Shown: in pieces, positions 2,017 to 36,521 of the stretch
How positions within the stretch are numbered: the stretch's first letter is position 1
Layout of the letters: the number at the start of each line of letters is the position of its first letter
Virus record (IMG/VR): IMGVR_UViG_3300025736_006128
Coordinates: 1 to 37,868 of that record
DNA length: 37,868 nucleotides
Strand: one strand, 5' to 3'
From: a virus
Notes under the pieces: generated by a model
What the model was told of the DNA's origin: nothing
Databases searched by the model: none
Seen by the model: only the letters and a program-made list of their open reading frames with translations
Position numbers and translations under genes: made by a program

Positions 2017-2361
2017 ATGCCATCCCGCTCCGTATACATCCCGGACGACTTACTCAAAAAATGGGACGCCGTAAAAGATAAATCCGGACTCGTCAAAAAC
2101 GCCATCACCGGTGCCACCGACGGCATCCACCTGACGGGCGTCCCCGAGCACATTATCGAGGCCCTGCAGGCCCACGCCAAAGCGCGCGGCCTCAGCCTGG
2201 AAGCGCTCCTCATCGATGAAGCCGTGAGCAACCTTTACGGCGCCCTGGTCAAGTGCCCAAAATGCAACTGGCCCCTCATCGACGAACGCGAAATTCCCGA
2301 CGATGGGGCCGGCGAAATCACCTGCCAGAACTGCGGCACAGTTTCAACATTAGAACTGTAA
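2017..2361 (+). CDS. Tandem ribbon-helix-helix plus zinc-ribbon protein
   Basis: This 114-residue protein starts at an ATG preceded by GGAGGA (2005-2010). Residues 1-30 (RSVYIPDDLLKKWDAV then SGLVKNAI) fit a CopG-like ribbon-helix-helix. Residues 37-72 (IHLTGVPEHIIEALQAHAK followed by RGLSLEALL) look like a second one of the FitA/Arc type. The C-terminus has a CPKC...CQNC zinc ribbon. RHH proteins bind DNA as dimers through the beta-strand, so a small transcription regulator is likely; the target is unknown. The last codons and the stop lie inside a type E palindromic repeat, so the C-terminal tail may have been set by repeat insertion. Confidence 0.75.
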   Translation: MPSRSVYIPDDLLKKWDAVKDKSGLVKNAITGATDGIHLTGVPEHIIEALQAHAKARGLSLEALLIDEAVSNLYGALVKCPKCNWPLIDEREIPDDGAGEITCQNCGTVSTLEL

Positions 2362-2518
2362 AGTTGTGCCCCAATTCCCCCTTTGAAGGGGGTGGCTCCA
2401 CCGCAGGTGGAGACGGGGGATGTTTCTTCCCGGTTATCCCAAAACTCCCCCGGAGTGCATTGCCTTTATGCAATGCGATTCACAAACCCCGGGAATGCCG
2501 ACCTCCGTGTCGGCGCTT
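2345..2518. repeat. Repeat cluster E-A-D-B
   Basis: E (CAACATTAG then AAAGTTG, 2345-2366) overlaps the end of the RHH gene. A (2374-2426) has the CCCCCTTTGAAGGGGG core, a CTCCAC/GTGGAG hairpin and closing GGGGGAT. D (2451-2477) has GCATTGC/GCAATGC around CTTTAT. B (2488-2518) has a CCGAC/GTCGG hairpin. The exonuclease leader follows directly. Confidence 0.85.
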
Positions 2519-2552
2519 CTGTTTTTTTTCTTATCCAAAAAAAGGAACCACC

Positions 2553-3134
2553 ATGAACCTACTATTTTTCGACACCGAAACCACCGGCCTCCCAAAGGAT
2601 TTCAACGCGCCAATCACCGACACTGACAATTGGCCCCGCCTGGTACAGCTCGCGTGGATCCTCACCGACGAAACCGGCAAAGAACTACAGCGCCGTAACG
2701 ACATCGCCAAGCCGGAAGACTTCGAAATCCCGGCGGAAGTCACCGCCGTTCATGGCATCACAACCCATCGGGCACAAGTAAATGGCATCTCGCTAGGCTG
2801 GATGCTCGACCACTTTGAGGCATCCGCTCAAATATCCGGGGCCCTGGTGGCCCACAACATCACCTTTGACCTGAACATCATTGGCGCCGAGCTGGTCCGC
2901 AAAGGCATGTTTCGGCCCCATGAAAAAACCAAAACCATTTGCACCATGAACTCCGGAGTAGAGTTATGTAAACTTACAGGTAGGTACGGCAAATACAAAC
3001 GCCCTCGCCTGGCCGAACTCCATGAGTTTTTATTTGGGGAAAATTTCGACAACGCCCACAACGCCATGGCCGATACCGAAGCCATGAAGCGCTGCTTCTT
3101 CGAAATGGTCAAGCGTGGTGTCATCAAAATATAA
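2553..3134 (+). CDS. DnaQ-like 3'-5' exonuclease (DEDDh)
   Basis: This 193-residue protein starts at an ATG after AAAAGGAACC. The reading frame is open far upstream, but that part is only translated repeat DNA. Exo I is FFDTETTG (D7, E9), Exo II is the AHNITFDL stretch, and Exo III is HNAMADTEAM with the H and D of DEDDh enzymes. Known members remove nucleotides 3' to 5' from DNA or RNA with two metal ions, for proofreading or end processing. The domain is nearly the entire protein, so it is a stand-alone exonuclease like those in phage replication or repair sets, not a polymerase domain. No replication gene is visible nearby. Confidence 0.9.
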   Translation: MNLLFFDTETTGLPKDFNAPITDTDNWPRLVQLAWILTDETGKELQRRNDIAKPEDFEIPAEVTAVHGITTHRAQVNGISLGWMLDHFEASAQISGALVAHNITFDLNIIGAELVRKGMFRPHEKTKTICTMNSGVELCKLTGRYGKYKRPRLAELHEFLFGENFDNAHNAMADTEAMKRCFFEMVKRGVIKI

Positions 3135-5460: not shown

Positions 5461-5477
5461 CCTCAAGAAACCCTTTA

Positions 5478-5608
5478 AATATTAACATTAGTCAGCTAAT
5501 GTTAATATTATTAAATCCCCCTTTGAAGGGGGTGGTTTTGCCACCGGCAAAAGTGGGGGATGTTTCTTGCCAAGTCACCCGGGAACGCCGATCTCCGCAT
5601 CGGCGCAT
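5478..5608. repeat. Composite E-A-B repeat
   Basis: E (5478-5509) is a perfect palindrome with 14-bp arms around TCAG (AATATTAACATTAG and its complement). A is at 5514-5564 with a TTTTGCC/GGCAAAA hairpin. B is at 5578-5608. Pyrimidine-rich tracts follow. Confidence 0.85.
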
Positions 5609-5726
5609 ATCTTTTTCTTTTTCTCGGCAGCTCTTATCTTTTTCTTTTTAATCTAATCCACCCAACCGTGGAGTTTTGCGCTCTTTGCAAAAACTCCGAG
5701 TTTAATGGCAAGTGTTTTTCTTGCCG

Positions 5727-6128: not shown

Positions 6129-6628
6129 ATCAAATCCTTTTTAAAATTCCCCCTTTGAAGGGGGTGCCCCTGCCAACGGCAGAGGTGGGGGATGTTCTTT
6201 ATCTCTTTTCAAACACCTCAACCCGTCAGAAATGGGGGACGTTTTTCTTTTCCCCAATAATTCGTGTCATGTCGAGCGTAGTCGAGACACGACACCGCTT
6301 TGCAACCTTACACCCCGACAATCGCTCCGCGTAAGGTTCGACCGCACTTCCGAAACGCCCCCATGCTGGGATAACTACCCCTCCAGGCAGCAAACAGTCC
6401 CTTCATGCAATCTGACGTTGCAATCTGTGGGGCTTGTACCGTCCGTCCGGCTCTATCTCTTTTCCAGCACCTCGCCCCCTCCCATTCCACCTTTGAAGGG
6501 GGTGGCTCCACCCTTGGTGGAGACGGGGGATGTTCTTTATCTCTTTTCTGACTCCGTACGGGCAGATTCCATATCTGCCCCCTTCTTTTCTTTAAAAACT
6601 CCTTAAGGCAAGGGCTCCTCTTGCCGGC
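6129..6628. other. Repeat-filled intergenic region
   Basis: A copies are at 6145-6197 and 6484-6534, and a C copy (TGTCGAGCGTAGTCGAGA) at 6266-6293. Between them are degenerate hairpins such as GGGCAGAT/ATCTGCCC near 6559-6582. Open frames on either strand here are low-complexity translations of the repeats; I see no gene. Confidence 0.7.
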
Positions 6629-7825
6629 CTATTCAGACGCCCACGCCCCATTCTCATTCTCCAGCCACTGCCCGAAAACCCCCGTCAAATGCACCCGACT
6701 CCGCGACACCAGCGTATACCCCACCCGTGTAATCGGAATCTTCGTCAACGTCCGCGTCGGACTCCCCACGTTTACCGTCATCAAATCCCCGAACTCCGCC
6801 ATCAAATCCTGCATTTCCGCTTCCAGACTGATTTCAAAAATTCCAAACGCAAAAATCGAATACAGCCGGTTCTGCAGCCGCGCCACCGTCATCGAATCAC
6901 TCAGGCTCCACTCCAGCGCCCCCACCGACCACGCACTCGGCCGCGCGAACAAAACCCCGTCAGCCGTAAAGGCAAAATTTCCGTCAGCGCTTAGATTTGT
7001 TCCGGCCTGATATAATGGCGAATCCGCATCCTTAATATTAAAATCCTCCGAACCACTGGCCACACTCACAAAACAATTCGCCGCCGTTTTACTGTCCTGG
7101 CTATTTGACCCCGGCGCAGTCGTATCCCCGCCGACATTGTAATCGCTATCCGCATGAAACGTCCCCGCGAACGCCGCCGTGCTTTGCCCCACACACACAT
7201 TGTTTTTCGCGTAAACCGTTCCCGAATATTGCCGAATACCGGTCGCCCCGTCAAACACCGTGTTATTGTAAACATACGCCGCCACCACGGAAGCAATATT
7301 AATCCCGTAACCCGTATCGACGTAAACAATATTATTCACCACCGTCACCGTTATCGCGGAATCATCCAGCTTAATCCCCAACCCGTCAGCCGAACCTTCC
7401 CCGTAAATAATGCACGAATCAATCCGGATGTCCGGGTCAGCGATTGCCCCCACGCCATACACATTTATCGCCTGGCAGGCCCCGGTCGCACTGCCCGAGT
7501 TGAACTGCAGCCCCCGGATCCGGATATGCGCTTCCTGAACCGTAAATATATTCGACAGCGCGCCGGTATAGTCAATCGTAAACCCCGAACCCAGCGAGGC
7601 GTCATGCCATTCTGTTTCCATCGCGTGAATATCGACATAATACGCCGGATTAGTGGCAAACGAATTAATCACCACCCCGCTGTCCATCACCGCATCGTCA
7701 TAACATTCCAGTTCGTGATACACACCGGCCACCTGCAGGTTTTTCCCTTCCGTCGCTTCCCACACCCGGAAATCAGAATAATCCCGCCCCACCGCCGTTC
7801 CAATCGTTACCGTTTCAACCGCCAT
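6629..7825 (-). CDS. Right-handed beta-helix tail spike-like protein
   Basis: This encodes 398 residues from an ATG preceded by a GGGGGTGGTGG stretch. Residues about 90-230 show the short strand-turn repeats of parallel beta-helix proteins (IRIRGLQFNSGSATG; IRIDSCIIYGEGSADG; TVVNNIVYVDTGYGINI; AYVYNNTVFDGATGI; TVYAKNNVCVG), with N-rich turns. The last 90 residues differ and end in VHLTGVFGQWLENENGAWASE. Phage beta-helix proteins bind or degrade host surface polysaccharide. The start overlaps the upstream gene by 11 nt. No catalytic residues can be named, so enzyme activity is open. Confidence 0.75.
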   Translation of the reverse strand: MAVETVTIGTAVGRDYSDFRVWEATEGKNLQVAGVYHELECYDDAVMDSGVVINSFATNPAYYVDIHAMETEWHDASLGSGFTIDYTGALSNIFTVQEAHIRIRGLQFNSGSATGACQAINVYGVGAIADPDIRIDSCIIYGEGSADGLGIKLDDSAITVTVVNNIVYVDTGYGINIASVVAAYVYNNTVFDGATGIRQYSGTVYAKNNVCVGQSTAAFAGTFHADSDYNVGGDTTAPGSNSQDSKTAANCFVSVASGSEDFNIKDADSPLYQAGTNLSADGNFAFTADGVLFARPSAWSVGALEWSLSDSMTVARLQNRLYSIFAFGIFEISLEAEMQDLMAEFGDLMTVNVGSPTRTLTKIPITRVGYTLVSRSRVHLTGVFGQWLENENGAWASE

Positions 7826-8639
7826 ATGCCACCACCCCCTTACCCGGATTCACAAAAAACCGATTCGGTAGCGGTATTTGCGGCCGTTCCGCCACCTCCG
7901 CCAACGTCATTTCCGGATCCAAACCGAACCGCAACAAATAATTCCCCGCCGACCGCCGCCCCTGCTTCACCAAATCCACGATCCGCGTTTCCAGCCCCAG
8001 CGTCTTACCATGCTTCTTCCAATCAATCGTCCAGCGCCTCTCAAACCCCTTACCATCCACCCGCTTCAGACATTTCATATCTCTGATTCCCCCTTTGAAG
8101 GGGGTGCCTCCACGCAGTGGAGGTGGGGGATGTTCTTCCGTCTCCCCAAATTCCCCGTCAGGTACCCACACCGTCAACACCCGCGACAACTCCCGCCGCC
8201 CCCAGGGCCACGTTTCCATCACACTCTTCCCGTCAGAAAACCCATGCGTCCCCAACAGCTCCAGCGGCATCGATTCCTTCAGCTCCCCCTCAAGCACATC
8301 CCGCGCCACACTCCGCAGCTTCATCTTTGGCACATCGTGATAACTCACCCCGCGTGGCGCTTTGGCCGTCATGGCCCGTGCCGTAACTCCACACGCCGCA
8401 ATCTTTTTCCGGAACACAGCCCCGTTAGGTTGCCGCACCGTCATCGTCCGGTCGAAATATTTATCATACAACCGTGGCGAAAAAGGCATCATCATCCCCG
8501 ACGTCCCGCGCAACAGCATGTCCGCCCAGGTATAAAAGATATCATCCTCATCCTTCACCGCCAGAATATCCCCCACCTGACGCGCATTTTCCGGACTCTT
8601 ACTATACCCCGGATTTATCACCACCGCAAATTCCGCCAT
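7815..8639 (-). CDS. Tail-region protein interrupted in frame by a type A repeat
   Basis: This encodes 274 residues from an ATG with GGAGG upstream. The N-terminus (VVINPGYSKSPENARQVGDI) and a central MKLRSVARDVLEGELKESMP stretch are soluble; no family is recognised. Residues about 168-184 (HPPPPLRGGTPFKGGIR) are exactly the translation of a type A element (8086-8136, 51 nt = 17 codons), which keeps the frame open. Without it the flanking sequence reads GETEE...DMKCLKR smoothly. This is the behaviour known for Rickettsia palindromic elements. The gene lies between the methyltransferase and the spike, so a baseplate or tail-tip role is likely. Confidence 0.65.
   Translation of the reverse strand: MAEFAVVINPGYSKSPENARQVGDILAVKDEDDIFYTWADMLLRGTSGMMMPFSPRLYDKYFDRTMTVRQPNGAVFRKKIAACGVTARAMTAKAPRGVSYHDVPKMKLRSVARDVLEGELKESMPLELLGTHGFSDGKSVMETWPWGRRELSRVLTVWVPDGEFGETEEHPPPPLRGGTPFKGGIRDMKCLKRVDGKGFERRWTIDWKKHGKTLGLETRIVDLVKQGRRSAGNYLLRFGLDPEMTLAEVAERPQIPLPNRFFVNPGKGVVAYGG
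8086..8136. repeat. Type A repeat inside a coding frame
   Basis: It has the full CCCCCTTTGAAGGGGG core, a CCTCCAC/GTGGAGG hairpin and a closing GGGGGAT. It lies wholly inside the 274-codon gene without stop or frame change. Confidence 0.9.
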
Positions 8640-8648
8640 TATCTATTC

Positions 8649-8859
8649 CCCTCCTGGGAATGCCGGAGGCGAACGCTCTCTGTTCGCCCCGTATCGGCAG
8701 TTTTGTCTTTTCTTTATCTTTCCCCATTCCCCCTTTGAAGGGGGTGGTTTTGCCACCGGCAAAAGCAGGGGATGTCGTCATCATTATTCATCTAATGTTA
8801 CCGCCCCAAATTCCCCCTTTAAAGGGGGTGGCTCCACGCAGTGGAGACGGGGGATGTTC
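8649..8859. repeat. Hybrid B/G repeat and two A repeats
   Basis: B arms (GGGAATGCCG ... GTATCGGCAG, 8649-8701) are split by a G hairpin (GCGAACGC ... GTTCGC). A copies follow at 8726-8776 and 8809-8859, and an E half-site (TCTAATGTTA) lies between them at about 8787-8796. The gap between the methyltransferase and tail genes (8640-8905) holds nothing else. Confidence 0.8.
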
Positions 8860-8905: not shown

Positions 8906-10330
8906 TTATTCTCTATCTCCGCAACCCTTATCTTCCTCTTCAAACCCCAACAACCCCAACTGCACCCCATCCCGCAGCACCGCCTGCACCCGCCGCTTTG
9001 CAATCACACAATTTCGAATATCGTTATCAATCCCAATAATCGGAATACCCAACTCAGCCGCACCGACAAGCGTGGACCCCGTACCAATAAACGGATCGCA
9101 TATCAAATTAACCTCCGGCATAGTCGCCAACCTCAATAAGTATTTCATAAGTTCCACAGGCTTAACAGTTGGATGCTGATACAACTCTAAATCTTTTGGA
9201 TGGGTTTCGTTTTCCTGATGTTCAGCCCGTTTAGATACTGGATAAGCGTCCTTGCACACAGGACAGTAAAACCAGCGTTCACGTTGGGCGGCCTTTGCAC
9301 AATAAAAGAATCGAGCGGCGGAACCGGTGCCGGAATAACCCTTTTGCCTTACGTCGCTATTTTTAGAGCCCCAAATAGAACCCTTGTTTGTTGTCATGCC
9401 ATTGGATGGCCCCGTCACCGGAAACTCACCCACCACACACGCAGACCCATCGTGGCAAATATTTGCAGGGTATCGGCCTTTTGTGTTGCTGGTACCATTT
9501 CCATTGTGTTTTTCCCAGTAACTGGCATTCGCATTATAGATTGTCGGCTTTTCACCCTTATACGCATGTGTTTCTTTTATTTCATCAGTTTCCACCCGCC
9601 CGCCATCAATCCACAACCCACTCACGCCATGCTCCAGCGCATTCGCAAAACCAGTCCCGTCAAATGGTTTTTGAGCGTAGCAAATAGGTTCCATCGCAGG
9701 TTTCAGGTTTTGCTTGCCGTATTTCCAGCCGTCCCATGTTTTCGCGTCGTCCGGTGCGGGGGCTGTAATTTTACACTCTTTCGGCATCCCGACAACTCTC
9801 ATATTTAAGCTACTACCACCGGGCTTATTCGCCGCTGGTTGTTTATGACTCCCTAAAACCTCGCGTTCCGCCCCAGCCTTCTTGTCAATTTGCTTGCTTA
9901 TATCTGTACTTTTTGGAAATCCCGATCCGAACATCCAGCTCAAAAAGTTATTTATTTCCCACCCGGAATCCTCAATAGCGCAGACCATCCGGTGATACGT
10001 CCGGCAACCGCCAAACGCGAATAAGTTTGCACCGGGTAGGCATGAGTTTAGTATTGGAGTCCAGAAGTCTATGCCTGGGACCGACTTATCCCAGCCCTTA
10101 CCCATAAAACCAATCCCATATGGCGGATCACTCACAATCGCCGTCAGCCCACCCAAATGCGGCATAACCGTCCTGTTATCCCCATAATAAATCGTAATAT
10201 TACCGTCCCTGTAAAATGGAACCACGTCCCTGTATCCCTTCTCTTTATCCGTTCCCTGCCCCAAATTCCCCCTTTGAAGGGGGTGGCTTCGCCTCCGGCG
10301 AAGATGGGGGATGTTCTTTTCGGAGTGCAT
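8906..10330 (-). CDS. Beta-class DNA N4-cytosine/N6-adenine methyltransferase
   Basis: The longest frame is 474 residues. The catalytic motif DPPYG is at 68-72 and the AdoMet-binding motif DPFIGTGS at 412-419. Catalytic-first order defines the beta class. The middle holds the target-recognition region, including a FYCPVCKDAYPV zinc-finger-like segment followed by His residues. Known enzymes methylate DNA to protect it from host restriction or for regulation. No partner endonuclease is visible, so it is an orphan phage methyltransferase. The first 30 or so residues are translations of D and A repeats. A GTG at 10225 (residue 36), 10 nt after GAAGGG and just before the real domain, is the more likely start. 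Confidence 0.9.
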   Translation of the reverse strand: MHSEKNIPHLRRRRSHPLQRGNLGQGTDKEKGYRDVVPFYRDGNITIYYGDNRTVMPHLGGLTAIVSDPPYGIGFMGKGWDKSVPGIDFWTPILNSCLPGANLFAFGGCRTYHRMVCAIEDSGWEINNFLSWMFGSGFPKSTDISKQIDKKAGAEREVLGSHKQPAANKPGGSSLNMRVVGMPKECKITAPAPDDAKTWDGWKYGKQNLKPAMEPICYAQKPFDGTGFANALEHGVSGLWIDGGRVETDEIKETHAYKGEKPTIYNANASYWEKHNGNGTSNTKGRYPANICHDGSACVVGEFPVTGPSNGMTTNKGSIWGSKNSDVRQKGYSGTGSAARFFYCAKAAQRERWFYCPVCKDAYPVSKRAEHQENETHPKDLELYQHPTVKPVELMKYLLRLATMPEVNLICDPFIGTGSTLVGAAELGIPIIGIDNDIRNCVIAKRRVQAVLRDGVQLGLLGFEEEDKGCGDRE

Positions 10331-10826: not shown

Positions 10827-10932
10827 ACTCCCCCTTTGAAGGGGGTGCGTTTTCGCCAGCGAAAACGTGGGGGATGTTTCTTTTATCTTTTTGATCCCCG
10901 CGCCCTGGGAATGCCGATCTCCGTATCGGCGC
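10827..10932. repeat. A and B repeat pair
   Basis: A is at 10827-10879 with a GTTTTCGC/GCGAAAAC hairpin; B is at about 10904-10932. They fill the gap between the membrane gene and the distal tail gene. Confidence 0.85.
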
Positions 10933-10942
10933 TTTCCTCTTG

Positions 10943-12518
10943 CTACCCCCTCAAAAACGGCACATAATAATCCACCATACTTTCCGAACCCAACAACTCC
11001 GCCGGACTCGCCTGCAAATCATTCGACTGATCGTGACCCTTATTTTCCGCGTCCGTACAATCCCAGGCATAATGCACCATAAACGCATTAAAAGGCTGCA
11101 ACCGCCGCACCGTCGGATTCCCAATCACATCCGGCGTCACCAATTCAGCAGCCACATACTCCGCCCATTCCGGATGCAAAACCATCAGCCGGAACTTGCC
11201 CGAAATCCCCTGCGCCATAAAAGCAATCCCATGTGGCAGCAGCGTCATAATCGCCTCCAGCACCGTAATCTGCGCCGTCCCCGTGGCCATCTGCTTCGCG
11301 AAGCTCAGCGTCAGCGCGTCGTTTTTCGTCAACGCCTGGCACACATTAAACGTCCCGCCAACCGTACCCGGCGGCTTTTCCGCTTCGTCCACTACACTGC
11401 TGGTCAAGTTCACATCAATCTGGCTGTCCGGAATCCCCGCGTAATCGTGCAGCAGTTCATAAATAATCTGCGGCAGCGTTTTCGCCACAAAATTCACCGC
11501 CACATGAAACGCCAACGTATCCCCCGCCGTCGGACTCGTCCAGTCCGCGCTGGCAATCTTGACATGGCTATCCGTCGCATCCGTCACATCATAAAAATCA
11601 CTGGCCGTACTCCCTTGAATATCCGGAATATTCGGCCCCGTCACCGTAAACGTAGTGCTGCTGTCCATGCGAATACCATATTCCCCCGGAAACGCCCCCG
11701 CATACACCGTAATTCCCGTCAAACTCGTACTGGCCGCATCATCCCAAACCAGCGCCGTTTCCATCTGCCCCTGAAAATTCGCCATCTTCGTCGGCGTGGG
11801 ACTGGTGCTGATAATCCGTAACGGCGCACTCAGCAGCAGGGCATGCATATTGTCCAGCCGCAACGTAGCCTTACCGCTCCCCAGCTCAAACGCCTCCCGC
11901 GCCACCCCCCGATAAACTTCCACATAATTAGCAGCATCCGCATTCAGCCGCAACCGCACGCTCACCTCCTGCCCGGCCACCGGCAAACTACTCACCACAC
12001 TGCCGGCCGCATAGCCATCCGTTAGGTTTGGACTAAAATTAACCGTACTGCCCACAATACTGGAAATCGTCACCTTTTCACTATTTGTCCCGTCGCTGAG
12101 CACAATCACTTCACTCGCCTGAAAATCCAGCAGCCCGTCTTCCAGCGTCAGCGCCCCCGCCGTTGCAATCACAGCACTGGCCAGAATCCGCTGCACCTCG
12201 CGGAACTGCCCCCCGGCCCGCCCGCCAAACGCGTCAAAGCCCTCATTCGGATTACTAAACGTAATCGTCAGCGGCCGCAAAACCATTGAATCATTCGCCG
12301 TTCGGATTACTAAACGTAATCGTCAGCGGCCGCAAAACCATTGAATCATTCGCCGTCGGTGAAATAGCCGAGCCATTTTCAATAAACCCAATCGTTTCAA
12401 TCCCGTTTTCATCACCCAGCAAAATCGCCTCACCATCCGGGTCCAGCACCACCTCAACCATAAAGTACGACGCCGGAAAAAGCGTTGCCGCCCAGGGACT
12501 ATCAGCTCGTATACCCAT
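10943..12518 (-). CDS. Distal tail/baseplate protein, frame broken by a 55-bp tandem duplication
   Basis: Two frames belong to one gene: MGIRADSPWAATLF from the ATG at 12518, and the main frame ending at 10943. A 55-bp exact duplication at 12246-12355 shifts the frame; removing one copy gives 506 continuous residues (TANDSMVLRPLTITFSNPNE). The protein is large, beta-rich and Gly/Thr-rich with no transmembrane segment. A later part (ITVLEAIMTLLPHGIAFMA) and the NAFMVHYAWDCTDAENKG stretch resemble tail hub or baseplate proteins only by position. Its start follows the previous gene's TAG directly. The gene is probably intact in the real genome. Confidence 0.7.
12246..12355. repeat. Exact 55-bp tandem duplication
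   Basis: Positions 12246-12300 and 12301-12355 are identical. A length of 55 is not a multiple of 3, so the tail gene is frameshifted. A probable assembly artefact. Confidence 0.9.
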
Positions 12519-13059: not shown

Positions 13060-13586
13060 GTCCCGCCATTCCTTCTGTTATTCCCCCTTTGAAGGGGGTG
13101 GGGTTTCGCAGCAGCGAAACCTCGGGGGATGTTTCTATTTATTTTTTGCTCTCACCATCTCGCGATTCATCTCAATTATAACCGGCAATGCGCCCGGGAT
13201 TTTAACCCGGCAGCCAAAGTTACCAGAAAACTTAACCTGGAACCTAAAAAGACCTCGGCCTCGGGTTCCTCACGTATAGCCGATTTTACGGCGTCCCGAA
13301 ATATTGCGAAGCCTGGACGTTCGCACCGTCCGTGACACATTGCCATTTTTTAATTCCCTGTCAGTTGTGGGCGTTTTGCTTCGCGAACGTCCTTTGTTCG
13401 CGCAAACTCCGTTGCGACCGCTCTTTGGTCGCACCATTACCCAACTAATGTTGATATCTGAAATCCCCCTTTGAAGGGGGTGCCTCTGCATCAGCAGAGG
13501 TGGGGGACGTCCAACATCACGTCCCGCCCCATGGACGTTTTGCGCTCCTTGCAAAACTCCTCAAGGCCTTCGTTCTATGAAGGCCC
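13060..13586. other. Repeat-filled gap downstream of the tape measure gene
   Basis: A copies are at 13080-13132 and 13461-13510, an E half-site (AACTAATGTTGATAT) directly before the second A at about 13443-13457, and G-like hairpins (GCGAACG ... GTTCGC) near 13382-13403. The open frame at 13270-13554 runs through these repeats and is not a gene. Confidence 0.7.
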
Positions 13587-17961: not shown

Positions 17962-18110
17962 TATTCCCCCTTTGAAGGGGGCGGGGTTTCGCTTGCGAAA
18001 CCTCGGGGGATGTTCTCCCCGTTCACCTCTCACCATTTCTGAACTAATGTTGATATCTTGAAATCCCCCTTTGAAGGGGGTGGCTCCACACAGTGGAGAC
18101 GGAGGATGTT
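17962..18110. repeat. Two A repeats with an E half-site
   Basis: A copies are at 17962-18014 (GGTTTCGC/GCGAAACC hairpin) and 18060-18110. The E half-site AACTAATGTTGATAT lies at 18044-18058, directly before the second A. Confidence 0.85.
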
Positions 18111-22584: not shown

Positions 22585-22640
22585 TCAGTTTTCCTTGTTT
22601 TCGCCTCGTAGAGACGCGTTGCACGCGTCTTCCCGCAACC

Positions 22641-22769
22641 ATCAACTTTAGGCAACTAATGTTGATATCTTGAAATTCCCCTTTGAAGGGGGTGGTTTCG
22701 CCCCCGGCGAAAGCAGGGGATGTCTAACAGCAATTCCCCTGGGAACGCCGATCTCCGTATCGGCAGCTC
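22641..22769. repeat. Composite E-A-B repeat
   Basis: E at 22641-22669 (CAACTTTAG ... CTAATGTTG), A at 22675-22723 with a TTTCGCC/GGCGAAA hairpin, B at 22738-22769, then TCTATCTCTTATCTTTT. The gap (22585-22845) also has short GACGCGT inverted copies near 22610-22630 and 22798-22835. Confidence 0.85.
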
Positions 22770-22845
22770 TATCTCTTATCTTTTCCACACCATAGAGACA
22801 CGCCGCAACGTATCTAAATTACAACGCGTCTCTACCTGAGATTAT

Positions 22846-26062: not shown

Positions 26063-26137
26063 TAAGGCGAACCCTCTTTGTTCGCCCATCCCCCTTTGAA
26101 GGGGGTGGGGTTTCGCTTGCGAAACCTCGGGGGATGT
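26063..26137. repeat. G hairpin and A repeat
   Basis: GGCGAAC ... GTTCGCC at 26065-26085 is followed at once by A at 26088-26137 (GGTTTCGC/GCGAAACC hairpin). Confidence 0.8.
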
Positions 26138-26148
26138 TCTTCCCTTTA

Positions 26149-27882: not shown

Positions 27883-28007
27883 AAACAAAAAAAGCCCGAC
27901 AATCACTTTCGATTGCCGAGCTTCACTGGTCTGATTAGCCCGCTCTATTTTTCCCCCAAATCCCCCTTTGAAGGGGGTGGCTCCACGCAGTGGAGACGGG
28001 GGATGTT
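27883..28007. repeat. 125-bp direct repeat, left copy (terminator plus A element)
   Basis: Identical to 36397-36521. It begins with an A run and terminator hairpin and ends with a full A element (27959-28007). Confidence 0.95.
27886..27923 (-). terminator. Rho-independent terminator (left copy)
   Basis: AAGCCCGACAATC pairs with GATTGCCGAGCTT (two G-U pairs) over a short loop. Read leftward a T7 run follows. It would stop transcription from the right before the protease gene, so the head operon needs a promoter downstream of it or antitermination. Confidence 0.85.
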
Positions 28008-28316: not shown

Positions 28317-28404
28317 AATCTATTAACCCCTTGTTTTTATTGTACTATAATCAACTTACCCCTCCATTGTGCAAAAAAAATGCCAGCCCGTCGCAGATAA
28401 TTGC

Positions 28405-28529
28405 CACATTAGCGTACTAATGTTAATATTTTAAATTCCCCCTTTGAAGGGGGTGCCTCTGCCGCCGGCAGAGGTGGGGGATGTTTCTTGCCAACTCCCC
28501 TGGGAATGCCGATCTCCGAATCGGCAGCT
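28405..28529. repeat. Composite E-A-B repeat
   Basis: E at 28405-28430 (CATTAG CGTA CTAATG), A at 28434-28485 with a CCTCTGCC/GGCAGAGG hairpin, B at 28499-28529, then TTATCTTTTTCTC. Confidence 0.85.
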
Positions 28530-28768
28530 TATCTTTTTCTCTTTTTATCTTCCCAATCCCGTAGAGCCGCATTGCACGCATCTCCACCTTACCCCCACCC
28601 AACCCCGCGCCCTACCCCCGCCCCCCCGGAAACACTGTAAAGTTCGCCAAAGCCGAACCTTCCAAAACGTATTCCCAAAACAGTCCGAAAAATCCGGACA
28701 GTTCCCCCACACCCTAACAACTCTTACGATATACTTTATATTTTATGACGATATATTTTACTTTTATA

Positions 28769-29274: not shown

Positions 29275-29328
29275 TAAGTGTCTCCAGGCACTCAAAAAAT
29301 AGCCAAAGACTGCAAACTGGCAGAAACC

Positions 29329-29456
29329 ATCAACATTAGCTTAGAAATGTTAATATGAAAATTCCCCCTTTGAAGGGGGTGGTTTTGCCGCAGGCAAAAG
29401 CAGGGGATGTCTAATCACCCCATTCCCCCGGGAATGCCGATCTCCGTATCGGCGGC
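29329..29456. repeat. Composite E-A-B repeat
   Basis: E at 29329-29356 (CAACATTAG ... AAATGTTAATAT), A at 29360-29411 with a TTTTGCC/GGCAAAA hairpin, B at 29427-29456, then TTTGTCTCTTTCTT and the leader of the next gene. Confidence 0.85.
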
Positions 29457-29498
29457 ATTTGTCTCTTTCTTGAAAACCAACAAAAAGGAACCAAAATA

Positions 29499-30374: not shown

Positions 30375-31286
30375 ATGATACGACGATGGACACCAGACGA
30401 AATCCAATACCTGCGGGAAAATTACCAGCAAAAAATGGATGCTGAACTCGCCGTATATTTAGATCGGCCGCTCCACGGTATTAAAAATCAAAAAATAAAA
30501 CAGGGCTTACGCCTGACCAAGGCCGAGGCCGTGCGCCGACGTACAGAGGCCCAGGCCGCCAAATATGCCGAGACATTTATAATCTGGACACCAGAACAGG
30601 ACCAATTCCTGCGCGAAAATTACCCGAAATTCACCGCGAAGGAAATGTCACAAAAGATGAGCCGCAGCCACGCGTCCATCAAGGGCAGAGTGGCCAAGCT
30701 TAAAATCACACTGCCGAAAAGAATTCGCCGGAAACGCCAGGAAGTCAGTCGCTTCCAAATAGGCCAGCCCGCCTGGAACAAAGGCATCAAAGGCCTGCAT
30801 TTCAGTCCGGACACCGAATTCAAAAAGGGCTGCCGCCCGGCAAACACCCGGCACGACGGCGACCTTTCAGTTCGCACTGATTCCAGCGGAATCAAATACG
30901 TTTACATCCGCATCGCCCTGGGTGAATGGGTGCTCTTCCATCGCTGGATTTGGGAAAAAAATCGCGGGGCAATTCCGGAAAGCCACGTCATCCGTTTCGT
31001 CAATGGTGACAGCAGCGACTGCCGTCTGATAAACTTTGAAATGATTACCTGCAGGGAGCATGTCGGCAAAAACCACAACCGCGAGAAAGCCAGCGCAGCC
31101 ATGAAACAAGTATGGGCGGCCGGCACCTTTTACGAAAAAGACTCCTACGTTGCCGCCACACTGGCCCCGCGCGACAAGGAACTGCGGGTAGAATATTTAA
31201 AAAACCCTGAACTAATAAAAACCAAAAGATTGCAATTGAAACTAAGGAGGGCCATAAAGGATGTCGCTACAGCAGACACTGAATAA
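30375..31286 (+). CDS. HNH endonuclease with N-terminal HTH modules
   Basis: This encodes 303 residues. Residues 1-115 hold two Myb/SANT-like modules that each start with W-TP-(D/E)-(E/Q) (WTPDEIQYLRENY; WTPEQDQFLRENYPKF), followed by a basic KRIRRKRQE stretch. Residues about 165-225 form the HNH domain: YVYIRIALGEWVLFHRWIWE, then IPESHVIRFVNGDSSDCRLI and NFEMI. This is the pattern of phage free-standing homing endonucleases. Known members cut DNA in phage genomes lacking the gene and promote its spread. The second half of the HNH reads FVNGDSSD where H-x-DG is usual, so activity may be altered. Its end overlaps the next gene by 26 nt. Confidence 0.85.
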   Translation: MIRRWTPDEIQYLRENYQQKMDAELAVYLDRPLHGIKNQKIKQGLRLTKAEAVRRRTEAQAAKYAETFIIWTPEQDQFLRENYPKFTAKEMSQKMSRSHASIKGRVAKLKITLPKRIRRKRQEVSRFQIGQPAWNKGIKGLHFSPDTEFKKGCRPANTRHDGDLSVRTDSSGIKYVYIRIALGEWVLFHRWIWEKNRGAIPESHVIRFVNGDSSDCRLINFEMITCREHVGKNHNREKASAAMKQVWAAGTFYEKDSYVAATLAPRDKELRVEYLKNPELIKTKRLQLKLRRAIKDVATADTE

Positions 31287-32482: not shown

Positions 32483-34632
32483 TCATATCAACCCACCATC
32501 CCGATCATCCTTAGAATACGGCGCATCATACGGCGTTTCCCGATCCCATTTATCCCGAACATCCTTATCCGTCTCCCACAGCGGAATCCGAATACACATA
32601 CAATTATGCACCGCAAACCCCTGCGCCACGTAACTTTCGTCACCGTCCACGCTTAAATTGTACACCGTGATCGCCGTGCGCTGTTCCCGCTCGATACGCG
32701 CCACCGGCACATCCATAAACTCAATCGCCCCGGCATGATTCCGAATCAGCTCAGCCACCTGCATCGGCGCCGAATGCCAATCCTTTTCCGAAACGTGAAT
32801 CACCCGATACCCTTCCGCCGTCAACTCCGCATCACGGGCCGCGTCCTGCGCCTGCCGGTTTTTATGCCAATAAGAACCATCATACTCCACAATAATCTTA
32901 TAATCCGGAATACAGATATCCGCGTACCGCGTCGTCCGTGCCGTCACAATTGGCAGTTCCAATACCGCACTCGGCCAAAACCGCTTAACCTCCCAGAACA
33001 CCCGTATTTGCGCCTGAGACGTCCGAATCCGACGGGCGCCAGGATGGTTCCGACAATACCGCCGCAATGACACCGACACCCGCTTTCGATTCGCAGCCGC
33101 CGCTTCCGGATGCGCCGTCCGCCAATGCAGCTGCATACTTCGCGCATAGCCCGGATTGCCACGATGAAACCGGCTCAGGCTGATTGACATCTTTATCCGC
33201 TCACCCGCCCGCGTATACCGCCGCCGCTGACTTTTCGCCATCCGTTGCCGCGTTACCGATGACGTTTCCGCGTGTTCTTCCCGCGTCACCTGGCTTTCGC
33301 ATGCCTGACTGCAAAACCCAACCTCAGTCCCGGCATTCCCTTTCCAGCGTGAATACGGAATCAACTTACCGCACTTCCGACAGCGCGTGGCCAGCACCCG
33401 CACCTTATCCCCAATATGAATATTCTCGGCCGGTTTCCATTGCCCGTTCACCAGCGCCTCATGATTCGGCGTCAACTTCACCGTCACCGCCCGCGGCACC
33501 GCATCCGCCCGATAGGGTTCAAGCACATACGCCACCCCCACCAGCGTCTGATTATAGGCGGAATTCACGTGCTTCTCCGTCACCACTCGATATTTTCCCT
33601 GATGCGTCAGCACCAAATCCCCAACCGCAATTTCGCGAATCTGCCGCCACCCATCCGGCGTTTTTACTTTTGTATAAGACGGCACGCAATGCGGATGCGT
33701 ATGCGTCACCGGCTGCGGCCCTTCACCCAACTTCCAGACCCGCCCCTCAAACTGATCGCATATCTCACACGCCCCGGCCGCGATACTCCATTCCTCAAAA
33801 TTCACCTCAGCCGCACGGGATTGCAAATCAAACGCCGAATTAATCATCAACGTGCTTTCGGACCGGGCAATCCGATTCCAATACCACATCTTGCCCTCAC
33901 CCACCTGCTTCCGCATGGCCCGCCCCGCCTGCAGCACACTTTTCTTGCCCTTAGCCATATCCAGCAACGTCTGGTGAAATCCCTCGCGCCATGAGGACTG
34001 TATCTCCGCCCGAATCCGAGACGCACCAACATCATACGCCGCACGGAAATACACATTATCCTGCTGCACCAACAGCCGCATCGCGTCAATTTCATCGTCC
34101 GTCATATCCGGCAGCTTATGCGCCTTCAACAGATTGACCGTCTCTGAAATTCCCACCGTGAACGACAAAAACATGTAGAAATTCCCACCGTGAACGACAA
34201 AAACATGTATTGCATCAATACCGCCGCCGGCACAACCGCCTGTTTCTGTTCCAGCTCACGCGTACCCAGAATATCCTCTTCCAAATCCAAAACGGCCGCG
34301 TCATAGCCCCGCTGAGCGGCTTTATTATAAACAAAAACGCGATCATCGTAACCGGGCACCGGTTCGCCAATCGCGTCAGCTCGCAACTCGTCCAGCGACG
34401 GCAAGTCCAGCACCTCAATCAGCCGCAGCTCAAACGCCTCAACCTTCTCAAATATCGCGTTAAAACAGTCCTTATTAATCTTCCGAATCTTTGGCCAGCG
34501 ATGTTTCCGCCCGGCCTGTTCCAGTTCCCACGCTGTCGGGTCCGTCGCATGTTTGCAGGCGATCGGCTTTTCCGGAATCAGCCCCTGCGTCAAGCTCAGT
34601 AATCGTAGTCCGGCTTCCCCCATAGAATCCAT
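32483..34632 (-). CDS. SPP1 gp7/MuF-type head morphogenesis protein with intein; frame broken by a 32-bp duplication
   Basis: Start ATG at 34632. A 32-bp duplication (34146-34209) splits the frame after VLMQYMFLSFTVGIS; removing one copy gives 705 residues. The intein (32603-33688, 362 residues) sits inside the C-terminal metal-binding motif. After splicing, 343 residues remain with CEIC ... THPHCMCIRIPLW, the Cys/His pattern of the Mu gpF/SPP1 gp7 family. These minor head proteins bind the portal and are packaged in the virion. The N-terminal half is helical and Lys/Glu-rich. It directly follows the portal gene, as is usual. Confidence 0.85.
32603..33688 (-). mobile_element. Intein with Vsr-like (EDxHD-type) homing nuclease
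   Basis: It starts at Cys1 (CVPSYTKVKTPDGW, block A) and continues with IREIAVGDLVLTHQGKYRVV; TPNHEALVNGQW is block B with the T-x-x-H motif. It ends in VYNLSVDGDESYVAQGF then AVHN, followed by Cys+1 (blocks F and G). The insert holds a zinc-finger pair (CRKCGKLIP ... FCSQACES), a basic NUMOD-like region, and a nuclease core PDYKIIVEYDGSYWHKNR with RDAEL and GYRVIHVSEKDW. The E-x-D-...-W-H-...-D order fits Vsr/DUF559 and EDxHD homing nucleases rather than LAGLIDADG. Confidence 0.88.
34146..34209. repeat. Exact 32-bp tandem duplication
   Basis: 34146-34177 and 34178-34209 are identical; the length is not a multiple of 3 and breaks the MuF-type gene. Confidence 0.9.
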
Positions 34633-34636
34633 CAGT

Positions 34637-36197
34637 CTACTCCGTCAGTAAATTATGTGCATTTTTTGCCGCAAATCGGGCATACGCCCGCCTCCGCAAG
34701 TCTTCAATCATCTCGTTCGTATTCATCGACAATTTAGCCGGCAGAATTTTTTTTCGTTGTAAATCTTCAACAACCTCGGCCGCCGACACCAGTCGTTCGT
34801 ATTCATCGACAATTTAGCCGGCAGAATTTTTTTTCGTTGTAAATCTTCAATAACCTGAGCCGCCGACACCAGGCCACAATCCAGCAACCAGACCGCACTC
34901 GCGATCTCTTTATTCGCCGCCTGTGAATTATAAAGCCGCGCCTTAGCTGTTTCAACCGCATCCTGCAGGCCGATTTCATCCCAGACAATCTTGAATTTCG
35001 TCCCGGCATACCCGGCAAAATTCAGCGCATACCAGATAATCCGGTCAATCGCCGGCTCCGTTGCCGTCCGATACCCCGTAATCGACTTAGCCAGCATCTT
35101 CCGCTGTTCCGTCGTCATCCGTTCAGAGGTGGACCATGAAAAACCAAAGAACGCCGGTGGTATCTCCGTCTTAGCCGCGAACATCTCCAAAATAGTCCGC
35201 ATCGGCACTTCCAAGGGCATCACATCCGCGTCCGCACCCAAAGTACTTATTTTAACAGTTCCACCCGGAGGCGCCACCGTATGCAGGTCCGTCATCTTTC
35301 CCATGCGCCGCTTCTGCATCAGTGCTTTTGTAGAAGCCTTCAATTTGTCCGACACCTGACCGGCAATTTCGTATGATTTCTTCATCCCCTCAATCGGATT
35401 ATTTATCGGAAAATTTCCCGGCTCAACCACCAGGAAGAACGACGGATCCCCCACCTTCTGCAGCTGATTATCAATAGTTTTTATTATCCGCTGAAACACA
35501 TTACCCACGAACGGCAATCCATAGAACAACGACGTTCCGGATGGCTGACCATTGCGTTTGTCTGGTGCCACCTGGTACACAAACTCCGGCCGGTCAAACG
35601 GCTTCACCCGCACCGCCCCGCGTTGAATAGAACCCAGCACCCAGCGGCCATCCACCTTCGCGAACCCCACCCGCTCCGAATTCGCATTCAGCAACCGATC
35701 CACGCCATTTTCCAGCGCCGTCGGCACCAGCTCCACAAAGCCGTTCCCCTGCTCCAGCCCTGAATCAATCGCCTGCGTCACCACATTGTGCATCCCGAAA
35801 TTCAAATCATTCACCAGCACCGTGCGCAAAAAGTCATCAACGAATTCCTGAGCCCGCGTATTCCCATCGCAATCAATCGAAAACGTCCCCACCAGGCGCT
35901 TAATCTTATTCACCCCAACATCTAAAATTGGCACCGACTCCCGCAGCACCCGAAACACCCGCCCCCGCACCCCGTTTGCCTTCAGCGCGCCATCCACTTA
36001 ATCTTATTCACGCCCACATCCAGAATCGGCACCGACTCCCGCAGCACCCGAAACACCCGCCCCCGCACCGCGTTCGCATTCAGCGCGCCATCCACACCAA
36101 AAATCTCTTCCAGCGGAGTTTCCCACGCCTTCGTCTGTGGCCCCAGCCCACCAGAACCCGCACTACTCGCGGCCTGTCGTCCTGCCGGAATTATCAT
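34637..36197 (-). CDS. Portal protein, frame broken twice by tandem duplications
   Basis: Start ATG at 36197 overlaps the upstream stop (ATGA). Duplications at 35899-36094 (98 bp) and 34713-34872 (80 bp) each shift the frame. Removing one copy of both gives 460 continuous residues from MIIPAGRQAASS to a stop at 34637. The middle part is portal-like: NKIKRLVGTFSIDCDGN, AIDSGLEQGNGFVELVPT, PSGTSLFYGLPFVGNVFQRI, and EIPPAFFGFSWSTSERMTTE before a long helix. Portals form the dodecameric DNA channel at one capsid vertex. The start of the MuF gene lies 4 nt beyond the stop. Confidence 0.85.
34713..34872. repeat. 80-bp tandem duplication with three mismatches
   Basis: Copies 34713-34792 and 34793-34872. 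The mismatches change VSAAEVVED to VSAAQVIED, a conservative strain-like difference. Confidence 0.9.
35899..36094. repeat. 98-bp tandem duplication with about eight mismatches
   Basis: Copies 35899-35996 and 35997-36094 near the start of the portal gene. Most differences are synonymous (for example ILDVGVNKIK is kept in both). Confidence 0.9.
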
Positions 36198-36396: not shown

Positions 36397-36521
36397 AAAC
36401 AAAAAAAGCCCGACAATCACTTTCGATTGCCGAGCTTCACTGGTCTGATTAGCCCGCTCTATTTTTCCCCCAAATCCCCCTTTGAAGGGGGTGGCTCCAC
36501 GCAGTGGAGACGGGGGATGTT
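36397..36521. repeat. 125-bp direct repeat, right copy (terminator plus A element)
   Basis: Identical to 27883-28007; A element at 36473-36521. Confidence 0.95.
36400..36437 (-). terminator. Rho-independent terminator after the lysis genes (right copy)
   Basis: Same hairpin and T7 run as at 27886-27923. It follows the lysozyme gene by about 120 nt and precedes the zinc-ribbon/portal genes. Confidence 0.85.

Follow-up and report, generated by a model that had tools for sequence, protein, structure and literature searches.

Our combined findings suggest that a segment within a probable tail-associated viral gene is very probably one copy of a short palindromic repeat, non-autonomous and REP-like, which entered the gene by insertion and was kept because the reading frame stayed open. 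The gene lies in a stretch of viral DNA of 37,868 nt (IMG/VR record IMGVR_UViG_3300025736_006128), which was analysed over its full length and is referred to here as the window. We call the repeat type A.

The in-frame element and its carrier gene

A sequence-only reading of the window had described a complete type A element at positions 8086-8136 (plus strand, 51 nt; ATTCCCCCTTTGAAGGGGGTGCCTCCACGCAGTGGAGGTGGGGGATGTTCT), adding 17 codons to a tail gene without a stop or a frameshift. We found that the element is indeed in frame, but its length is less exact than described: the conserved core of this copy covers 46 nt (8089-8134, plus strand), and the net difference in length from the homologue in a related contig, L107, is about 18 codons, so that the borders are unsettled to the base. 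The core consists of CCCCC TTTGAA GGGGG TG, an inner hairpin at 8107-8123 (plus strand) with a perfect 7-bp stem (CCTCCAC/GTGGAGG) and a GCA loop, and T GGGGG ATGTT, and folding gave two stable hairpins on both strands of the element. Over the core, it shares up to 94% nucleotide identity with intergenic copies. Read on the minus strand, the element encodes HPPPPLRGGTPFKGGI(R), which would add about 17 amino acids in the context ...FGETEE-HPPPPLRGGTPFKGGIR-DMKCLK... and contains no stop. In most of 132 bacterial copies, five of the six frames through the type A element are open, and the lack of a stop is thus weak evidence for insertion; more is learned from the location of the element within a real gene and from how its relatives compare than from the open frame.

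The carrier gene (7815-8639, minus strand) codes for 274 amino acids with no internal stop. Judged by synteny, it is probably tail-associated, being downstream of a PhageMin_Tail gene and adjoining a beta-helix protein gene (6629-7825, minus strand). The name tail gene is drawn from its position; Pfam and PHROG searches returned no match for the protein itself; AlphaFold2 gave no usable model of it (mean pLDDT 33). The coding parts that flank the element are alike in codon-position composition and the element itself differs from them. The insertion lies between a conserved 'WGR-EL..V-V(P)DGE' block and a 'K-LK...RRW' block, a place at which homologues vary in length.

A single-protein homologue search of IMG/VR and a phage collection found nothing significant for this product, and its relatives were reached only through two neighbouring genes, 10943-12286 (minus strand), which led with 42% identity to the syntenic contig L107 (IMG/VR 3300037485_002668), and the beta-helix gene, whose kept adjacency located positional counterparts. 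Gene order is conserved between L107 and the window. Between the L107 homologues of these two neighbours lies one uninterrupted ORF (L107:9384-10118) that matches residues 1-271 of the window protein (E about 1e-11, 24-31% identity) and is the only statistically strong homologue of the viral gene. It aligns on both sides of the element and lacks the segment (L107 ...LYIPDAEFADEKE-IKALR... versus window ...VWVPDGEFGETEE-HPPPPLRGGTPFKGGIRD-MKCLK...), in agreement with the proposal that homologues without it could be found. In several further contigs from the beta-helix neighbour search, the ORF just upstream represents a distant counterpart that has the WG(R/K)-E block in common with the window protein; these have weak E-values and are linked mainly by position. 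In two of them (L158 and L162) little or no sequence separates the WG(R) block from the ALK block, and others have unrelated sequence of various lengths at the insertion point, which can thus be considered a length-variable stretch. The inserted peptide HPPPPLRGGTPFKGG was seen in none of the counterparts examined, so that homologues carrying it as part of a conserved domain, the finding that would have spoken against insertion, did not appear among them. An exact, nucleotide-level empty site was not found among the relatives examined. The viral protein was also sought in 68 Hydrogenedentota genomes, with no hit; this search had no positive control and shows little.

Type A copies in the window and in bacteria

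With mismatches allowed, the window holds 19 type A copies, all with a core of 46-51 nt; the outer pattern occurs exactly 10 times, against none in 100 shuffles. Of these, only the copy at 8089-8134 falls within a supported gene. Given that 78% of the window is coding, one coding copy in 19 is a strong intergenic bias (P about 3e-11, with a hand-chosen gene list), measured in the window only. Intergenic copies, all on the plus strand, are found at 6149-6196, 6487-6534, 8729-8776 (directly upstream of the carrier gene), 8813-8858 (the direct neighbour of the preceding copy), 10830-10878, 13083-13133, 13465-13511, 17966-18014, 18065-18110 (which, with its flanks, matches the in-frame copy at 81% identity across 78 nt), 26090-26138, 27962-28007 and 36476-36521. 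Two further plus-strand copies were left out of the in-frame count because they precede the conserved domains of their ORFs: 2377-2424, in the long ORF 2253-3134 upstream of its exonuclease domain and probably 5' of the true start, and 10268-10315, in the N-terminal end of a methyltransferase ORF taken at its greatest length (8906-10330) and probably extragenic.

The remaining plus-strand copies belong to a composite of about 140 nt that occurs four times with similar spacing (5476-5624, 22636-22784, 28397-28545 and 29324-29471), in which a type C hairpin (CAACATTAG...CTAATGTTGAT) is followed by A and then by B (CTGGGAATGCCGATCTCCGTATCGGC). The A copies of the first three composites are intergenic (5517-5564, 22677-22724 and 28438-28485) and that of the fourth (29364-29411) lies between plus-strand ORFs. 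The copy at 27962-28007 is within a 125-nt segment (27883-28007) repeated with 100% identity at 36397-36521, which suggests recent local copying. Other features were noted elsewhere in the window. Near-perfect tandem duplications of 80 nt (34713-34872) and 98 nt (35892-36087) are present in and next to the portal gene, and a minus-strand ORF (32483-34174) has weak intein-splicing and DUF559/HNH homing-endonuclease-like matches in its middle and weak head-morphogenesis matches outside them; it may be a head gene with an intein.

Across genomes, the family has the layout CCCCCTTTGAAGGGGGTG-variable hairpin-GGGGGATGTT, with a constant outer motif and an inner hairpin that changes between genomes and between copies. 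In a scan of 84,980 species genomes, at least 98 DNA stretches carried the outer motif, and among the matches listed most were from Hydrogenedentota, with some from Bacteroidota, Chlamydiota and Patescibacteria MAGs. Exact copies were present in 12 of 68 Hydrogenedentota genomes, with up to 30 per genome, and a reversed control pattern gave none. The longest inner stem averaged 6.9 bp in the window, compared to 4.1 bp (sd 0.4) after swapping halves between copies, and 4.8 bp in bacteria, compared to 3.0 bp (sd 0.1) after such swapping. The inner hairpin thus varies yet stays self-complementary, which suggests that the structure is needed, as DNA or as RNA. The window's own TCCAC/GTGGAG hairpin variant had no exact-pattern match among the 84,980 species, the exact element was in no other IMG/VR contig, Rfam gave no match at gathering thresholds, and an exact-string literature search found no paper containing the core string.

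The search for type A copies in other coding frames proved fruitful in bacterial MAGs. Copies lie within the PF20256-matched span of a xanthine-dehydrogenase-like protein (L031), within the span matched by PF04932 (Wzy_C, O-antigen ligase; L093) and, in the DNA polymerase I of L035, in the stretch that separates the 5'-3' exonuclease domain from the polymerase domain. At the same place in Wzy_C homologues from other Hydrogenedentota genomes, two have no copy (L142, L144), two have one (L139, L146) and one has an inverted pair (L141), counts that leave out two alignment rows in wrong frames (L143, L145). The copies in bacterial genes are independent support for in-frame insertion by the type A family. 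An inverted A pair in frame, adding two peptides, was observed in an O-antigen-ligase-like gene (L046 5763-7998, reverse complement, and L141).

Orientation differs between the two settings. In the window, the plus strand carries all 19 A copies, close neighbours among them being in direct orientation, and all nine B copies. Window genes occupy both strands, plus-strand examples being the exonuclease ORF 2253-3134 and an HNH ORF (30375-31286), and the orientation of A ignores gene strand around the plus-strand genes of the 2.3-3.1 kb and 28.8-31.3 kb stretches. Bacterial A copies occur in both orientations, and of 33 pairs less than 400 nt apart, 32 are inverted.

Probable origin of the inserted segment

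The reading that we favor is that of a hairpin-forming unit that would be moved or copied by an enzyme acting in trans, possibly one of the Y1 kind that works on single-stranded DNA. As the sequence is poor in stops, an insertion of suitable length would yield a Pro/Gly-rich linker, and selection would purge insertions that break genes while retaining rare ones in loops. The location of 18 of the 19 window copies outside supported genes is the outcome expected from purging of damaging insertions, and the copy at 8089-8134 would be a survivor of it. Any function of the inserted peptide itself is most probably slight or absent.

Y1 transposases were detected in 13 of 14 A-bearing bacterial genomes tested. 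A motif scan of 30 Y1-transposase loci from A-bearing genomes found no A copy, and we therefore propose a trans-mobilised hairpin element and leave the enzyme unnamed. The ends of type A are inverted over only about 7-8 nt (ATCCCCC...GGGGGAT), and in a search for target-site duplication, matching flanks were not in excess for any k from 2 to 9, apart from small effects at k=2. As the searches turned up neither a mobilising enzyme nor a target-site duplication nor an exact empty site, we infer mobility from presence and absence and from dispersal. Within these limits, the earlier view of an element both mobile and tolerated within coding sequence is supported.

Could the segment instead lie between two genes? 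The element would then be intergenic, with the upstream ORF reading through it into a gene starting at the ATG near 8077 (MKCLKRVDG..., about 89 aa). This ATG lies only a few codons past the element, and a position outside genes would match that of 18 of the 19 copies. However, L107:9384-10118 is a single ORF over both halves, the distant counterparts in L158 and L162 are also continuous across the insertion point, and the downstream part agrees with the upstream part in frame and in codon-position composition. The one ORF in L107 and the frame and composition shared by the halves favor a single gene that received an insertion, and we consider two separate genes quite improbable. Within a single gene, a restart of translation at this ATG, directly after the element, is possible.

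It is also unlikely, if somewhat less so, that the element is a viral regulatory hairpin (start-associated, a terminator or a processing site) that came to lie in a gene by chance, with its mobility incidental. The single direction and nearly exclusive intergenic location of the A and B copies agree with such a role, as do the two stable hairpins on both strands. Yet members of the family occur in several bacterial phyla, oriented either way and also within unrelated genes, and in the window the distance to gene starts and stops varies and orientation is independent of gene strand near plus-strand genes. Finally, a chance resemblance of the repeat to a conserved Pro/Gly-rich loop of the protein family could draw on the length variability of the insertion point among distant counterparts, but is already contradicted by the core identity of up to 94% to intergenic copies, as well as by the perfect inner hairpin and by the lack of the peptide in every counterpart seen; we regard it as extremely improbable.

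For the REP-like repeat that we favor, the one-strand distribution in the window calls for an account of its own. Spread through a single-stranded DNA intermediate during viral replication is a tentative and rather doubtful idea. If true, it would account for the one-strand A and B copies in the window versus the inverted pairs in bacteria, and the in-frame copy would be a by-product of an untagged REP-like family invading virus genomes. Alternatively, the same bias might reflect a regulatory function linked to the strand of the genome.

Relation to known palindromic repeats

Rickettsia palindromic elements (RPEs) occur between genes and in frame within unrelated protein genes, to whose products they add a peptide (PMC2229807, PMC10969869), and one tested enzyme with an RPE insert stayed active, the effect being judged neutral or slightly detrimental (PMC2229807). 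The parallel drawn by the sequence-only reading is apt for behavior, as type A is also found in frame within protein genes that have homologues without it. The name does not carry over: RPEs are rickettsial and measure 105-146 bp (PMC2229807), or about 150 bp in a later review (PMC10969869), whereas the type A core has 46-51 nt and is found in other phyla and a virus. RPEs are set apart here by description (size and hosts), and there was no Rickettsia among the A-bearing matches listed.

Type A resembles REPs in being a short palindrome with many dispersed copies, mainly intergenic in the window, and its inverted bacterial pairs (32 of 33) are like REP doublets, BIMEs or REPINs. Intragenic REPs are known, including in DNA polymerase I (PMC3733652), and the copy in DNA polymerase I of L035 recalls such systems (PMC3733652, PMC8266576). 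The movement of REPs is attributed to Y1 transposases that work on hairpins in single-stranded DNA (PMC8266576), and in some species RAYT genes lack flanking REPs (PMC3733652). Unlike REPs, however, the window copies have a single orientation with no inverted pairs, no GTAG/CGTC tag was found in the type A core or conserved flank positions when the copies were read, and no RAYT/TnpA-REP (Y1) transposase lay beside A copies in 30 loci of A-bearing genomes. Bacterial MITEs (ERIC, NEMIS, RUP) are small and non-autonomous, have inverted ends and in some cases form in-frame fusions (PMC2229807, PMC10969869). Type A shares their small size, inverted ends and in-frame copies, but differs in the shortness of its ends, about 7-8 nt, and in showing no sign of target-site duplication. 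We assigned type A to none of the three groups, given its mismatch in size with the RPEs, the failure to see a GTAG/CGTC tag or to find a transposase link as in REPs, and these differences from MITEs.

In-frame palindromic repeats are already known in Rickettsia and in some REP-rich bacteria. The likely novelty here lies in one more REP-like family, untagged, of which a copy has come to sit within a viral gene. Rare protein-coding palindromic repeats are thereby extended to a probable phage structural gene. The fixed outer motif combined with a free but self-complementary hairpin makes type A a clean system for studying repeat movement, and the single orientation of the virus copies, versus the inverted pairs of bacteria, is a testable difference.
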